64,000 nucleotides of DNA from Parabacteroides sp. GTDB lineage: Bacteria > Bacteroidota > Bacteroidia > Bacteroidales > Tannerellaceae. Shown here piece after piece: positions 45,263 through 50,980 of this stretch (its first letter is position 1; every line of letters begins with the position of its first letter). Where the stretch lies: contig JAFUOJ010000009.1 in the NCBI GenBank assembly GCA_017481945.1, positions 141,553 through 205,552 on the forward strand. The letters are read 5' to 3'. Position numbers and translations under genes: made by a program. A model generated the notes under the pieces. The model worked only from the letters and a program-made list of their open reading frames with translations. It ran no database searches and had not been told where the DNA came from.

Positions 45263-47641
45263 TTATTCATTAATACTTTCTATTGTAACACCAGTTACTG
45301 TATTATTGCCATTACTTTCAGCTGGCTTATTATAAGTCAAACTTCCATATACCGCTCCATATGTAGTAACAGATTCTTTATAACCATTTGCATTATCCTG
45401 AACAATTTTCACGTTTTCTACTGTGTTACCACTAACTGCATTCTCATCTGTATCATTAGTATAACCGACAATACCTCCAAGATCACGGTAAGCTGTAATA
45501 GTTACATTTTTTACAGAACAACCACTAATAGAGTTTAGTAGATTTGTAAAACCAGCAATACCACCAACTTTATCTCCATTATCGTATTCACCATTTATTA
45601 ATTCAGGAACAGATGTAATTGTTCCACCTATAACATGACAATTTTTAATAACTTCTGACTCTGCAGTAGAATATCCCACAATACCACCTGCATAATGGCT
45701 ACTTAAAATATTTACATCTTCTAATGTAACGTTTTGAATAGTTGCATTTAAAACAGTTCCAAAAAGACCTGCTGTTGCATATTTAGCCTCCTTAGAGACT
45801 ACAGTTAAATTACTAATCTTATAGTTATTTCCATCAAATATACCTTTAAATGTTGGTGTCGGATGACTAGCAATAGTTGCTCCCCCAATCGGTGTCCAAT
45901 TTACATTTGACAAATCAATATTAGCAGTTAATTTAATAGTTTTACCACTAAAATCATTACCGTCATTAACTGTAGTCGCAAACCAATTCATACCTGCTGC
46001 TGAAGAAATTTCATATTCACCTGTAGTAGCATTTAAAGAAACACCGTCTGCAACAAGTTGTTTTCCGTCAACTATGATGTAAGAACCATCGTCACCATAT
46101 TCATATCCACCGTTAACCATAGTACAACCATTCATAGTTAAAACAGCTCCTGCGACAGCACTAACACCATCAAAATATTGATCTGTTGTATTAACGTCAC
46201 TTACATCAATAGTACAGTTGGTCATTGTTGTATTTTGATAGAAACGAACCATTCCATAAAGACCATTACCTGTAATATTACAGTTAGTCATTTCAACTGA
46301 ACTAATAGCACGACCGAAAGAACACCATCCAGACAAGTTACAATCTTTAAAGACAACATTACCATCACCATTATCAAAATGGATAGAATATGCATCATTT
46401 GGATTACTAAATGTACAACCTTCAAAAATCACAGTACCGTCTACATCGTTACCATAGCTACGACCTTCAACAACAGCATTACGAATAGTAACGGTAGTAC
46501 CGGCTGGAACTAATGAAGTTGTAAGAGCTGTACTTCCACTAAGTGCTCCTACATTAGCTCCACTAACATCAACAATAATATTTGTATTTCCATTTGCGAC
46601 TTCTGTTGTCAAAGCGTCCTTAATTGTTTCATAATATGTTTCACCAACCTTTACGCCTAAACTTTCATTTCCATCATCTGTAACATTATTCTCTCCAGAG
46701 AAAACTTCATCTATAATAACATTAAAGTCAACACCACTTGTCAAGATATTACCAATGATATTGGTTCGCCAGTTACGCTGAATTGGTATTTCTTTATCTG
46801 CTGAAGGTGCAAATGTGATTGTCTTACCATTAATATCAAATACAGCCTTTAAATCTTCCAACTTTGATGGTTTAACACCTTTTCCATCTGCGTCTTTCAC
46901 CAAAAGATAACTCATTGAAAGGTATTTATACGCCTCTCCTCCAGCAACTAAATCTTCACTTACCATCTCTTTTTGTGCAAAAGTTATAGTTTCAGGAAGA
47001 CTTTCACTCTGACTTACTTCACCTGTCAACAAGTTGATTTGGTCTGCAACATTGCTACTGCTGAATGAAACAGAAGATTTTCCGTTAAAGCTTTCATCTG
47101 AGATATTTGCAGCTTTAAGAGCAGCCTTCCATTCTTCTTTTGTTGTACCAACGTTTAATTGAGCAAACGGACGTTTTAATGTAATAGCAACCTCCTGAGC
47201 AGCATTAACTGTCAATTCGTGATTTGCAAAGAAGGCATCGCGAAATTCGTGGTTATTGGTTGCACTGTTATAGCTTACTACGACATTTCTTAAATCAGTA
47301 GTGTTATAAGCTGAACAATTGGAAGCTTGTGCCCAAAAAGCAAACTGATAAGTATGCCCCTTTAATAATACGACATTTACTGTAGCTCGTTTATTTGCTA
47401 CAGTAACATTGTTCTGACGAAGTTCTGTTATCTCTTCTCCATCTTCATACACTGCAAAAACCAACTTGTCTACCGTAGTTCCATCTCCGACTGCCTTAGT
47501 TTTAATATCACCACGTAACTCAGTAGTGAAGGATACCGTTACTTCATTACCTGAACTCTGAGCGACTATCTCGTCTTCAGAGCAGCTTGTTGCCAGCAAC
47601 ATCGTTGCTAAAGCAAACATTCCCATGAATACTTTCTTCAT
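45263..47641 (-). CDS. Fimbrillin-like (DUF6562/Mfa-type) adhesin with beta-helix and GLUG repeats
   Basis: A 792-residue surface lipoprotein (signal with Cys in LLATSCSEDEIVAQ; acidic export-like residues). Residues 30-310 match the fimbrillin-like domain of Bacteroidales (VTVSFTTELRGDIKTKAVGD; AFWAQASNCSAY; ITLKRPFAQLNVGT). Residues 340-560 form a right-handed beta helix with short strands (MTNCNITG, MTNCTIDVS). The C-terminal 230 residues hold GLUG-type repeats (FKGIFDGNNYKISNLTV; AGGIVGYST; GGIAGFTN; GGIVGYTN). It is the last gene of the HU-DUF3575-DUF5119 operon and is likely the fimbrial tip or stalk adhesin. It has lower GC than the three genes before it. Confidence 0.85.
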   Translation of the reverse strand: MKKVFMGMFALATMLLATSCSEDEIVAQSSGNEVTVSFTTELRGDIKTKAVGDGTTVDKLVFAVYEDGEEITELRQNNVTVANKRATVNVVLLKGHTYQFAFWAQASNCSAYNTTDLRNVVVSYNSATNNHEFRDAFFANHELTVNAAQEVAITLKRPFAQLNVGTTKEEWKAALKAANISDESFNGKSSVSFSSSNVADQINLLTGEVSQSESLPETITFAQKEMVSEDLVAGGEAYKYLSMSYLLVKDADGKGVKPSKLEDLKAVFDINGKTITFAPSADKEIPIQRNWRTNIIGNILTSGVDFNVIIDEVFSGENNVTDDGNESLGVKVGETYYETIKDALTTEVANGNTNIIVDVSGANVGALSGSTALTTSLVPAGTTVTIRNAVVEGRSYGNDVDGTVIFEGCTFSNPNDAYSIHFDNGDGNVVFKDCNLSGWCSFGRAISSVEMTNCNITGNGLYGMVRFYQNTTMTNCTIDVSDVNTTDQYFDGVSAVAGAVLTMNGCTMVNGGYEYGDDGSYIIVDGKQLVADGVSLNATTGEYEISSAAGMNWFATTVNDGNDFSGKTIKLTANIDLSNVNWTPIGGATIASHPTPTFKGIFDGNNYKISNLTVVSKEAKYATAGLFGTVLNATIQNVTLEDVNILSSHYAGGIVGYSTAESEVIKNCHVIGGTITSVPELINGEYDNGDKVGGIAGFTNLLNSISGCSVKNVTITAYRDLGGIVGYTNDTDENAVSGNTVENVKIVQDNANGYKESVTTYGAVYGSLTYNKPAESNGNNTVTGVTIESINE

Positions 47642-47674: not shown

Positions 47675-48835
47675 TTATTCTTTGTTTTGTTTCTTTTCTT
47701 TCGCACTTTTTATCTCTACCGAATGGTCTCCCTCAAAGCTCGGGTCAATCGAGACTCCCCCGTCGAAGCTTCCTTCCGGCTTCACGTCCGGAAAGACAAT
47801 CGGTTCGTCCGGATCGTCATAGCCGGGATCATCCGGATCATCAGGCGTATCGGGATCGTCCGGGGTTGGGTCATCTGGCTCGTCCGGGACATCAGGGATG
47901 TCCGGGTCATCCGGTATATCAATCGCCGGCTTTCCTAACTCCAGATACAAAATCCGACTGCAATCATCCTTCGTTTCGCTAAAGCGATTACCCACCAAAA
48001 AGGCATAGTTCAGCACCGTCTCGTTATCCACCAAGCGAACCGACATATTGAGTATATTCTCCTCCGCTTTCCCCTCGTGATCCGATGGTAATCCGAAGCT
48101 CAGGCAACTGGTACTCAAGTAACCTTCGCTGCGCTCCGATTCGGAGGTCACTGCGCTCCAATTTGTCAGCAAATGCGTAACCCGGGGAGAAGTCCTCACT
48201 TCCGAGTCCATCATGTACCCTTCGGCTATCCCCGAAAGGCTGCTTTCCACCGAGCGTACATTATAAATTCCGTGCACGTGTACCTTGACGTAAACCGTAT
48301 AAATCACGTTCTCCGGATAGACCGTCAGTACCGTCTCCTCGATCGGAAGACCCAGCTCTTTCTGATGTCGGTACTGTTTCAACATCTCTTCCGTCACCTT
48401 AAAATCGCGATGAATCGCTATGCCCAAACGTTCCGGGTCGGCCACGATCGGCTCATTTACACTGCGTTTCATCTTCATCTGTGAGTAAATCTCATAGGCG
48501 TATGCTTCGGCTGTCGACAGACGGTCCATGTTCCGGAAGTTAATTGAACCCAACTCACTCATCGTTTCATTGAAGACCAATACATCATACGTATTTACAG
48601 GGATATTTACCGATACCTTATCCGGATTATGGCTCTCTACGCAAATCGCCTCCGTCCCGTCTTGTGGGAAGAAGATGACTGTCATTCCCATCGGATATTC
48701 ACAGAAGCGGTCCCACACTGCCTCGACTCGTACCGGAACAAGGTGCGGGTGTTCGTAACAAAGTTCCTTATGTTCGCAACCGAACAGCAAGACTGTCAGC
48801 AACAGAACGCTTATATATCGTACTATTCTTTTCAT
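47675..48835 (-). CDS. DUF5119 lipoprotein with Pro-Asp repeat tail
   Basis: A 386-residue lipoprotein (LLTVLLFGCEHKELCYEHPH). The first 290 residues are the DUF5119 domain found in Bacteroidales fimbrial gene clusters (VRVEAVWDRFCEYPMGMTV). A tail of repeated DDP/DxPDDPD units (about 305-345) then acts as a flexible acidic arm. It is probably a fimbria assembly or anchor protein. It overlaps the DUF3575 gene by 4 nt. Its DNA is clearly richer in GC than the window average. Confidence 0.85.
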   Translation of the reverse strand: MKRIVRYISVLLLTVLLFGCEHKELCYEHPHLVPVRVEAVWDRFCEYPMGMTVIFFPQDGTEAICVESHNPDKVSVNIPVNTYDVLVFNETMSELGSINFRNMDRLSTAEAYAYEIYSQMKMKRSVNEPIVADPERLGIAIHRDFKVTEEMLKQYRHQKELGLPIEETVLTVYPENVIYTVYVKVHVHGIYNVRSVESSLSGIAEGYMMDSEVRTSPRVTHLLTNWSAVTSESERSEGYLSTSCLSFGLPSDHEGKAEENILNMSVRLVDNETVLNYAFLVGNRFSETKDDCSRILYLELGKPAIDIPDDPDIPDVPDEPDDPTPDDPDTPDDPDDPGYDDPDEPIVFPDVKPEGSFDGGVSIDPSFEGDHSVEIKSAKEKKQNKE

Positions 48836-49461
48836 CGCTTACCTCCTTTCTGCCACGGCAGTAGCCATACTAAAGAGACCTCGACTTTGGTCGGTCCCCA
48901 CCAATTCCGATTTTTCGTGTATTGCCAGACATAACAGCCATCAATCGGGTCGTATTCCATATATTCGCCTCTCAAATAGCCCACACCCAAGGTGAAGTCT
49001 AAGTTGAGACGTTTAGCAATTGGCAAAGAATAACCATATTCTATACCTCCGCCATACGACCATTTGTCTCCCAAATAACCACGACCACCCCATTCGAAGT
49101 CGTACGTCAGCATTTGGGCATAAAGACCGATATGGTGTCCGACGAAGGTCCGTTCCTTACTTCTCTTGCCCAACCATTTACGTACTGCAAAGTCACCACC
49201 ATAGGTCCGCCAGTAGCGATGTTTCCGGTCCGTATGCCACCAGGCATACATCCAGTTGGCAGCTACCGTCCAGTTCTTCTTCAGATACAGCTCTACTCCG
49301 ATGTTCGGGACAGCCGCTGCGTCATAGAGTAGATTCGTCTTTACAACCAGATAATCAAACTTTTGCGAGAGGACATCACGCGATTCTGAAGCTTTTTCCC
49401 CTTCTTGAGCGGAAAGAAAGCAACAGACAAACAATCCGATAAGGGTTAATATCCGTTTCAT
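48832..49461 (-). CDS. DUF3575 outer membrane protein
   Basis: A 209-residue protein with a signal peptide (LTLIGLFVCCFLSAQEG). The body is DUF3575, a small beta-barrel-like family (LVVKTNLLYDAAAVPNIGVE; WTVAANWMYAWWHTDRKHRY; LNLDFTLGVGYLRGEY). It ends with basic residues. It occurs in Bacteroidales fimbriae loci together with DUF5119. It overlaps both neighbours by 4 nt (HU upstream, DUF5119 downstream), so the operon is translationally coupled. Confidence 0.88.
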   Translation of the reverse strand: MKRILTLIGLFVCCFLSAQEGEKASESRDVLSQKFDYLVVKTNLLYDAAAVPNIGVELYLKKNWTVAANWMYAWWHTDRKHRYWRTYGGDFAVRKWLGKRSKERTFVGHHIGLYAQMLTYDFEWGGRGYLGDKWSYGGGIEYGYSLPIAKRLNLDFTLGVGYLRGEYMEYDPIDGCYVWQYTKNRNWWGPTKVEVSLVWLLPWQKGGKR

Positions 49462-49751
49462 TTTACAGGAGAGTTTTTTAAGTTTACTTGTTCAAACAGT
49501 TCTGTTCCGACAACAAACTTGACGGAGTTACGTGGAGTAAGCATACAAGGTTCTCCGGTCTTGACATTGCGGACCGGGCGTGCCGTCTGCTTCAAGATAC
49601 GGAACGTACCGAAACCTCTGACGACTACGCTTTCTTCTGCCTGCAGAGATTCCGTAATACAATCCAAAAAGGCATTGATTATGGGTTGTACTTCTACTAC
49701 GGTCTTATCCAATCGCTCGGCAACCTGTTTTATCAATAGATTCTTATTCAT
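49458..49751 (-). CDS. HU-family DNA-binding protein
   Basis: A 97-residue protein of the HU/IHF fold: MNKNLLIKQVAERLDKTVVE, then the beta arm VVVRGFGTFRILKQTARPVR with NVKTGEPCMLTPRNSVKF. It is the first gene after the invertible promoter, so it is made only with the fimbrial proteins. HU or IHF bend DNA and often assist tyrosine-recombinase inversion; a role in the switch itself is a reasonable inference. The start is preceded by GGAG 5 nt upstream. Confidence 0.9.
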   Translation of the reverse strand: MNKNLLIKQVAERLDKTVVEVQPIINAFLDCITESLQAEESVVVRGFGTFRILKQTARPVRNVKTGEPCMLTPRNSVKFVVGTELFEQVNLKNSPVK

Positions 49752-49765
49752 TTTTCTCCGTTTTA

Positions 49766-49921
49766 GCTACTTGGTAGGTAGCAGTGCTGTTTTCACGTTG
49801 CAAAATTAGAAATACTATGAAAAACAAACAAAAGAAATGTAATTAAATCTTTCCTCGGAGGTTCTTTTTTTAGGAAACAGTCTCTTTTCGCTCTCTTTTT
49901 CATAGCTACCTACCAAGTAGC
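49766..49921. promoter_or_regulatory. Candidate invertible promoter segment (17-bp inverted repeats)
   Basis: GCTACTTGGTAGGTAGC (49766-49782) recurs inverted as GCTACCTACCAAGTAGC (49905-49921), a perfect 17-bp match that ends abruptly on both sides. The repeats enclose 122 bp (49783-49904). Inside lies a consensus promoter pointing at HU and the fimbrial operon. A tyrosine recombinase gene ends 4 nt beyond the right repeat. Each repeat is itself partly palindromic (GCTAC...GTAGC), as in tyrosine-recombinase crossover sites. This is the layout of phase-variable promoters in Bacteroides. Confidence 0.82.
49801..49832 (-). promoter_or_regulatory. Promoter of the fimbrial operon, inside the invertible segment
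   Basis: On the minus strand TTTG (49829-49832) and TAATTTTG (49801-49808) are separated by exactly 20 nt, matching the Bacteroidetes consensus. Transcription would start near 49794 and run leftward over the left inverted repeat into HU (ATG at 49751). In the other orientation it would run toward the recombinase 3' end and leave the fimbrial genes without a visible promoter. The present assembly therefore shows the ON state. Confidence 0.82.
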
Positions 49922-49925
49922 CTTC

Positions 49926-50852
49926 CTATTTTTCCTTATACATATATACTTTCCTAAAGCAATCATTTGTCACTTTTGTCAGTTTGTCTAAGGAGAAGCT
50001 GCGTAGATAAATCTGGGTGGTCCGTATCGATTGATGTCCCAATAGCTCACTGATTATTTCGATTGGTACTTGCTGTTCTTTTAGCTGATTGGCGAAGGAG
50101 TGACGAATCGAGTATGAGGTTACCGGACTCTTTATGCCGGCTCGGGTTTTCAGAGTTTTCAGATTCCGGTTGAATTGCTGTAACGCATTCTGATACTCCA
50201 AGTATGCAGCCTCTCCCTTTTGAGAGCCACTTAGGAAGGGCATGAGGTATTGGGAGGAATGAGAAGTCTTCCGAGAGAGTTCCTGCTGCATGGCGTTTGC
50301 ACTTCTTAGGACTTCTAATCGGATCGAAGTTCCGGTTTTCCGGCGTTGATAACTTAGGATATTGTCCCGGACATTCTCTGATTTTAAATGGGCAAAGTCT
50401 GCAAAAGACATCCCACCGTATTGAAACATTAGGCAAACCGCCAACTGAGTTTTCCTTAGTCGGGGTTCCTTCACCGGGACCGTCATCAGGCGATGTAGTT
50501 CTTTTAGTGGCAAAGATCTTTTCCTCCGGCTCTCGATTCCGGTAAACACACCACTGAACAGATTCGGAATATAGGTAGCTTCTCCCTTTTCTACCGCCCT
50601 GTTATAAATACAGCGCAGGCGACGCATATAGGTCGAAATTGTGTTTCGGGAGCGGCCTGCCTTTTGCAGGTAGAGTTCATATTCATGCAGACATGTTTTG
50701 GTTATTTCCTCATATGCAATCTCTTCCGTTGCTTTGAAACGCACAAACGAGCGGAGGGCATCCAAGTAACTTTTGGCAGTTGAGAAGCGTTGTTCCTTTT
50801 GTAACAAAGTAACATACTCTCTCATTCCTTCTATAAATCCTTTCTTTTTCAT
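49926..50852 (-). CDS. Tyrosine recombinase (site-specific integrase)
   Basis: A 308-residue recombinase. The N-terminal SAM-like core-binding domain spans residues 5-105 (YVTLLQKEQRFSTAKSYLDA). The catalytic domain has Lys in YQRRKTGTS, Arg250 in YSIRHSFANQ, His273 in LLGHQSIRTT and the nucleophile Tyr282 in TQIYL. The first catalytic Arg of the family is not obvious: the region reads FQYGGMSFADFAHL where many Bacteroidetes relatives have ARGM. Its 3' end is next to the inverted repeat, so it is most likely the invertase of the fimbrial switch. GC content is higher than in the core genes around. Confidence 0.9.
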   Translation of the reverse strand: MKKKGFIEGMREYVTLLQKEQRFSTAKSYLDALRSFVRFKATEEIAYEEITKTCLHEYELYLQKAGRSRNTISTYMRRLRCIYNRAVEKGEATYIPNLFSGVFTGIESRRKRSLPLKELHRLMTVPVKEPRLRKTQLAVCLMFQYGGMSFADFAHLKSENVRDNILSYQRRKTGTSIRLEVLRSANAMQQELSRKTSHSSQYLMPFLSGSQKGEAAYLEYQNALQQFNRNLKTLKTRAGIKSPVTSYSIRHSFANQLKEQQVPIEIISELLGHQSIRTTQIYLRSFSLDKLTKVTNDCFRKVYMYKEK

Positions 50853-50893
50853 ACCGGTATTTTCTTTTGTAATCCCAGCAAAGAAATAAAAAT

Positions 50894-50927
50894 ACCCGAT
50901 GACAAAAACTAATTTGCCACCGGGTAC
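50894..50927 (-). terminator. Terminator after relA
   Basis: On the minus strand CCCGGTGGCAAA pairs with TTTGTCATCGGG (12 pairs, two of them G-U), extended by TA/TA, and is followed by TTTTTATTTC. It lies about 55 nt downstream of the relA/spoT stop and separates it from the recombinase gene. Confidence 0.75.
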
Positions 50928-50980
50928 TATTCTTTTTACTCTTACTTATTTGAAAAGTCAAACTCTTGCTTTTACCTTCT

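Follow-up and report, generated by a model that had tools for sequence, protein, structure and literature searches.

The 64,000-nucleotide stretch of Parabacteroides DNA analysed here (the window) contains a locus which is, in our judgement, very likely a phase-variation switch: a tyrosine recombinase would turn a fimbria-like operon on and off. An initial annotation had proposed a promoter-inversion switch for a surface operon, and the comparison with related loci supports it with respect to the clade of the recombinase, its sites, the position of the promoter-like box and the existence of inverted relatives. As in invertons, a promoter-bearing segment is bounded by inverted repeats and lies next to the gene of a site-specific recombinase. 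What appears unusual is the cargo, as a capsule-type switch stands before an HU-led fimbria-like operon: the type of switch is known and the combination new, and the locus is very probably functional. The features are:

45263..47641, minus strand: fimbrillin-like surface protein, 792 aa, with DUF6562 (PF20200, E 7.1e-12)
47675..48835, minus strand: DUF5119 protein, 386 aa, possible Mfa2/FimB-type anchor (PF17145, E 8.1e-43)
48832..49461, minus strand: DUF3575 protein, 209 aa (PF12099, E 1.1e-43)
49458..49751, minus strand: HU/IHF-family DNA-binding protein, 97 aa, first gene of the operon (PF00216)
49766..49782, no strand: left recombination site, HU side, exact inverse of the site at 49905..49921
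49783..49904, no strand: predicted invertible segment, 122 bp, perfect repeats on both borders
49801..49832, minus strand: Bacteroidota-type promoter-like TTTG-N20-TAATTTTG, directed toward HU (ON), recognised by its pattern and its position in related loci
49905..49921, no strand: right recombination site, recombinase side, GCTAC-N7-GTAGC, from the repeat search
49926..50852, minus strand: tyrosine recombinase, 308 aa, proposed invertase, 3' end abutting the right repeat (PF00589, PF13102)
50891..50928, minus strand: terminator-like hairpin after relA/spoT and 5' of the recombinase gene, 16-pair stem with a T-rich tail

The inverted repeats at 49766-49782 and 49905-49921 are perfect over 17 bp and enclose 122 bp, exactly as annotated. 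Each arm is itself of the form GCTAC-N7-GTAGC with an asymmetric 7-bp spacer; short inverted arms around an asymmetric spacer are the layout expected for the core site of a tyrosine recombinase. As the spacers of the two sites are inverted to each other, recombination between them would invert the segment. The distance between the site centres is 139 bp. A chance origin of the repeat pair is not expected: it is the single perfect inverted repeat of at least 15 bp with a gap of 60-1000 bp in the 64 kb, and 100 first-order Markov sequences contained a mean of 0.08 such pairs, none of them of 17 bp. The motif GCTAC-N7-GTAGC occurs twice in the window (0.01 expected), exactly in the two arms, and these were the sole copies found in the draft genome when up to two mismatches were allowed.

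The promoter-like TTTG-N20-TAATTTTG directed toward HU, which had likewise been annotated, was found at 49832-49801 on the minus strand; 18 bp separate the end of its box from the distal site. On its own, this type of pattern is not rare (7 occurrences with a spacing of 18-22 in the window versus 3.1 expected), and it gains its meaning because the position is common to related loci. The recombinase gene ends, again in agreement with the annotation, 4 nt outside the right repeat, with its stop codon ending at 49926. The terminator-like hairpin stands between relA/spoT and the recombinase gene; no terminator-like site was found on the minus strand of the recombinase-HU interval, so that read-through from the recombinase gene into the operon is possible and could give some expression in either orientation.

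In P. distasonis APCS2/PD, a 17-bp repeat GCTACTYRGNRAGTAGC is reported to surround putative promoters, with an integrase gene before them, at 10 of 12 capsule operons; the same 2025 paper, which deals with phage co-existence, describes capsule expression as changing under phage (PMC12118408). A comparison of P. distasonis capsule clusters reports an integrase in each (PMC9409006). The window site agrees with the GCTACTYRGNRAGTAGC consensus given in PMC12118408 at 16 of 17 positions, the last spacer base being different. The recombinase matches PF00589 (E 4.5e-19) and PF13102 (E 1.2e-17). With a threshold of E 1e-60, related recombinases were found at 25 places including the window, which are spread over 5 of 38 Parabacteroides genomes. 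In a maximum-likelihood tree of 41 rows (duplicates and the fragment L093 were dropped), the window protein joins six of the 24 capsule-labelled rows, separately from the remaining 18, with a support of 100/99. Note that four of the 24 capsule-labelled rows (L007, L010, L018r, L020), whose downstream DNA is missing, were labelled by kinship, and that L007 and L010, two of the six rows grouping with the window, bear the label by kinship alone. The highest identity of the window recombinase to these rows is 64%, and the program used for the tree flagged long terminal branches, including that of the window (0.46). On the basis of this tree, we assign the enzyme to the P. distasonis GCTAC-type capsule-switch clade.

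A GCTAC-type site was found at the 3' end of the recombinase gene in all 24 other related genes, between 16 bp inside the gene and 10 bp beyond it. For 20 of these relatives, 3.0-11.1 kb of downstream sequence were fetched; the other four hit contig ends. Two sites are present in 21 distinct loci including the window (L011r, which is the same place as L007, was excluded from this count); in 20 of these 21, the two sites are inverse to each other without a mismatch over 17 bp. Four loci with one site were left out of the two-site set: L041 and L048, where a single site was found although the sequence continues, and L010 and L020, whose sequences end 194 and 27 bp past the recombinase gene. Exactly one of the two sites has a TAnnTTTG box 14-18 bp to its inside in 19 of the 21 loci (the mean for shuffled sets, n=200, was 0.17 and the largest value 2); L036 and L042 have no such box at the expected place. 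The distance from box to site is 14-16 bp in the 18 related loci versus 18 bp in the window. The box points toward the operon in five loci (the window, L044, L046, L051, L052) and toward the recombinase gene in 14.

The window resembles the invertible capsule promoters of P. distasonis with respect to recombinase clade, site motif (at 16 of 17 positions), promoter position and the order recombinase-segment-operon. It differs in its cargo, which is an HU-led fimbria-like operon and not a NusG/UpxY-led capsule operon, and in the length of its segment, which is with 122 bp the shortest of the 21 distinct loci; the other 20 measure 237-328 bp. Moreover, its spacer TTGGTAG occurs in none of these 20 loci. 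The difference in cargo was followed by means of phmmer with the products of the first two genes of L033 as queries: of 20 capsule loci, 17 were found to have a UpxY-like gene and all 20 its small neighbour, and the window has neither. We take the small neighbour to be putatively UpxZ-like, by its position; it had no Pfam match. Of the three loci missed with the UpxY-like query, L035 and L044 do match the NCBIfam UpxY model, albeit under its cut-off, and the third is L048; the E-values of the first genes of L033, L035 and L044 against this model are 4.5e-20 to 3.8e-27, all below the cut-off. In the record of P. distasonis TSDC17.2 which matches L035, a NusG-family gene and a polysaccharide gene follow.

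Inversion among relatives was assessed by comparing the alignment scores of a segment in inverted and in direct orientation, the maximum score of a flank being 150. In the genome G018, sister loci have segments of 305 bp which lie in opposite orientations between conserved flanks: L043 versus L046 scored 292 inverted and 10 direct (flanks 139 and 135), and L045 versus L046 scored 284 and 10 (flanks 91 and 135). Between genomes, L169 of P. distasonis TSDC17.2 and L036 of G004 gave 290 inverted versus 22 direct (flanks 143 and 150); for L171 of TSDC17.2 and L051 of G005, whose flanks are less conserved (122 and 100), the values were 145 and 13. L166 and L035 have the same orientation; L168 and L170 of TSDC17.2 are not comparable, owing to one site near the record end and an extra tandem site. 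Judged by these alignments, segments of related capsule loci occur in both orientations.

The window locus itself was very probably assembled in the ON state, as had been annotated, because the promoter-like box faces HU; it does so at the family's position. In its own assembly, which represents one genome of the species (a draft of 2.79 Mb in 45 contigs, 83% complete), neither a flipped form nor a second copy of the locus was found. The contigs C14 and C33 were considered as a flipped allele and rejected: they carry another switch and are identical over 2202 bp in the same orientation, which therefore represents draft redundancy. This other switch (L151/L152) consists of a recombinase gene and 20-bp repeats TCTCTATATAAGAGACGGAT around a 173-bp segment.

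The reading frame of the window recombinase is intact, and R170, K172, R250, H251, H273 and Y282 are as in all 26 clade rows. However, the clade has neither the canonical box I arginine nor the RGM arginine, yet related loci invert, and R170 is conserved instead. At the box I position, as aligned with Xer- and integrase-type proteins of the same genome, the window enzyme has Ser149 (S or A in 26 of 26 clade rows); the RGM-motif arginine of several other Bacteroidales recombinases corresponds to Gly146 (G, A, S or C in 26 of 26). R170, which lies two residues N-terminal of K172, is found in all 26 clade rows as well as in all aligned fimbria-linked recombinases, and is absent from six rows of the window's own genome (L142-L147) which keep the box I arginine. 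R170 is a candidate for the missing box I arginine. The active site seems unusual but not unprecedented, because recombinases of the IntCTnDOT subgroup are reported to have this arginine at one of two places, the second lying further downstream (PMC8138268). We regard the recombinase as very probably active at the window locus. The start of its gene and the upstream hairpin (50832-50940) recur with 84% identity at G000:C13:177631-177739 (L173), in which the reading frame diverges soon after its first codons; this copy looks like the remnant of a lost sister recombinase gene.

In the proposed mechanism, the recombinase would bind both GCTAC-N7-GTAGC sites, and strand exchange within the asymmetric 7-bp spacers would invert the 122-bp segment. 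In the ON state, transcription is expected to start some 10 bp ahead of the distal site; the transcript would cross this site and continue into the genes for HU, the DUF3575 and DUF5119 proteins and the fimbrillin-like protein. In the OFF state, the surface operon would lose its promoter, which would then point into the 3' end of the recombinase gene. As this gene ends 4 nt from the segment, the OFF promoter would fire antisense into it. The same would presumably apply to the 14 loci whose box faces the recombinase gene, and such antisense transcription could couple the orientation of the segment to the level of recombinase.

Two other readings of the repeats have to be weighed against a working switch. 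The locus could be a locked relic, whose recombinase and sites no longer work together and whose promoter is fixed in the ON orientation. The single orientation in the assembly, the unusually short segment and the spacer seen in no other locus compared are consistent with this, as are the broken 5' part of a former sister recombinase gene at another place of the genome, which indicates that such genes decay, and the HU-DUF3575 operon of G006, which has neither recombinase nor repeats in the stretch read. We nevertheless regard a relic as improbable, as the repeats remain perfect over 17 bp, the recombinase has kept its frame and the residues R170, K172, R250, H251, H273 and Y282, and the promoter is at the family's usual position. 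The repeats might also serve as operators of a regulator or form a hairpin in the 5' leader, the recombinase being an unrelated neighbour. Indeed, each repeat can form a short hairpin, and a 221-nt stretch with both repeats folds better than shuffled sequences (z -3.97), mostly owing to the pairing of one repeat with the other. Such a role would leave unexplained that the same class of motif stands at the 3' end of all 24 other related recombinase genes and that sister loci are inverted between such repeats, and we give it hardly any credence.

The order HU-DUF3575-DUF5119-fimbrillin of the initial annotation was recovered with the corresponding Pfam domains. The HU and DUF3575 frames as well as the DUF3575 and DUF5119 frames overlap by 4 nt each, as expected for one operon. 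The HU protein matches PF00216 over residues 1-90 (E 2.3e-24) and scores under the cut-offs of all matched NCBIfam models, and we therefore assign it neither to the classic HU nor to the IHF subunits. When used as phmmer query, the DUF5119 protein finds two proteins encoded in its own genome which belong to the Mfa2 family (PF08842; 8.9e-10 and 2.8e-10). The fimbrillin-like protein matches the NCBIfam model of the FimD tip adhesin with E 3.6e-5, far below the cut-off, and the Pfam fimbrial test yielded no more than DUF6562 and DUF5119 in the candidate pilin and anchor proteins. It is this family resemblance which suggests that the product of the operon is a fimbria.

The relatives of the single genes lie in different surroundings. 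For HU, 46 places were listed and 20 loci were read. HU is followed by DUF3575 in five of these 20 loci, namely in the window, in G006, twice in G012 and once in G037. The nearest HU relatives found are those of G006 (74% and, for a partial one, 78% identical); the G006 HU-DUF3575 operon has a TAAATTTG box upstream, according to a by-eye reading, and the stretch read there contains neither a recombinase gene nor repeats. The loci of G012 and G037 (L129, L130, L153), which belong to other Parabacteroides, are like the window in the order recombinase, inverted repeats, HU, DUF3575 and fimbrial-type genes; unlike the window, they have a distant recombinase (E about 1e-33 to 1e-32), CTTAT-N7-ATAAG sites, which are perfect repeats, and segments of about 380-456 bp. 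The nearest relatives of the DUF3575 protein, up to 75% identical, belong to operons without HU. Of 31 places listed for DUF3575, the surroundings of 20, not counting the window, were read: HU was found in none of them and an upstream recombinase in six. Two operons of the window's own genome, L156 (G000:C12) and L157 (G000:C11), combine a recombinase, CTTAT-N7-ATAAG repeats, DUF3575 and an Mfa2-family gene, and their first gene encodes a helix-turn-helix protein of 426-428 aa; L156 additionally has DUF3868 and Fimbrillin_C. With HU nearest to G006, DUF3575 nearest to HU-less operons and the recombinase nearest to capsule loci, the parts look interchangeable.

What HU does in this operon can be considered in two ways. 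The initial annotation saw in HU a dedicated helper of the inversion, with feedback: the HU protein made by the operon would act on the switch, favouring or blocking inversion, so that the ON state feeds back. The 139 bp between the site centres make a tight loop, which would suit an architectural helper, and HU-first operons behind a recombinase and repeats recur in L129, L130 and L153, albeit with a distant recombinase. On the other hand, none of the 20 same-clade capsule loci encodes HU in the 3.0-11.1 kb read downstream, HU comes first without a switch in the stretch read of G006, and the longer segments of L129, L130 and L153 have less need of a bending helper. Furthermore, the genome has another HU-family gene, and a housekeeping protein could supply the architectural help to the short loop instead. 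The idea of feedback is not favoured, because the same clade serves capsule loci without HU and HU occurs without a switch, and we consider it unlikely.

Alternatively, HU could be a phase-variable regulator of transcription, local or global, whose target is the surface operon or other genes and not the switch. Against this role speaks that an HU protein is commonly a general nucleoid protein. The first gene is, however, a helix-turn-helix gene in the two recombinase-linked fimbrial operons L156 and L157, and a NusG/UpxY-like gene in the capsule loci. In Porphyromonas gingivalis, moreover, the HU gene PG0121 is reported to be co-transcribed with a surface-structure operon, that of the K-antigen capsule, and a null mutation to lower the transcription of this operon (PMC3969353). 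There, the HU gene lies beside a capsule operon which has a 77-bp inverted repeat, and the abstract mentions no invertible promoter (PMC3969353). We give the role as a regulator about an even chance; on balance, regulation of the operon or of other genes seems likelier than feedback on inversion. A pattern repeats itself in that the first gene behind such promoters is a regulator acting on nucleic acids: HU or a helix-turn-helix protein before fimbrial genes, a NusG/UpxY-like protein before capsule genes. A more far-reaching idea, which we put forward only tentatively, is that inversion also switches a nucleoid protein that resets expression elsewhere, and perhaps the switch itself, and thereby leads to a different cell state, with modules, regulators and cargos being exchanged independently. 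A phase-variable nucleoid protein and its effects are a testable question in a gut-type bacterium.

More generally, the locus suggests that the recombinase-and-site module of P. distasonis capsules is not tied to capsules and can precede a fimbria-like operon. In the open-licence literature, which was searched only narrowly for HU, we found no description of an HU-led phase-variable fimbrial operon. At the order level, the recombinase clade was detected at E 1e-70 in one of 393 sampled genomes, which is the window's own; at most five candidates were scored per genome, and misses are therefore possible. The HU profile found 4 of the 393 genomes at E 1e-22, and DUF3575 followed HU in none of the five order-level HU loci outside the window's genome. 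No relatives of the recombinase were found in viral_contigs; the exact 17-mer occurs in one copy each in six viral contigs, and the phage records matching the recombinase, 62 in total, are all less than 60% identical (48% for the best-ranked one). Carriage on plasmids was considered and rejected: the best records are 'plasmids' of P. distasonis TSDC17.2, and two of them which were opened hold housekeeping genes (secDF, rapZ), which makes a chromosomal origin of these records probable. Two weak DNA matches of the promoter region, in G006 and G007, have unrelated surroundings and seem to reflect A-rich sequence that matches by chance.

Outside Parabacteroides, tyrosine recombinases at phase-variable outer-surface loci are described for Bacteroides fragilis (Weinacht 2004, via PMC12632263). 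In B. fragilis, a local tyrosine recombinase is reported to invert promoters of outer-surface protein genes, one of them matching a fimbrial protein (PMC12632263), which resembles the switch proposed for the window. The window differs with respect to species and cargo, and the repeats of B. fragilis are reported to carry GTTAC-GTAAC (PMC12118408). A capsule locus of B. finegoldii has a recombinase which is 47% identical, together with one GTTAC-N7-GTAAC and one ATTAC-N7-GTAAC site.

Two further observations concern the loci used for comparison. Some of L038, L129, L153, L156, L157 and L170 have three copies of the site or two alternative repeat pairs, and these extra copies could permit more than one inversion. 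In addition, the HU-DUF3575 operon of G006 (L126) and L156 of G000 follow the same kind of small gene, with products starting MEHKEKEWVDF and MEKKENELVDF, which looks like different surface operons at one chromosomal site.
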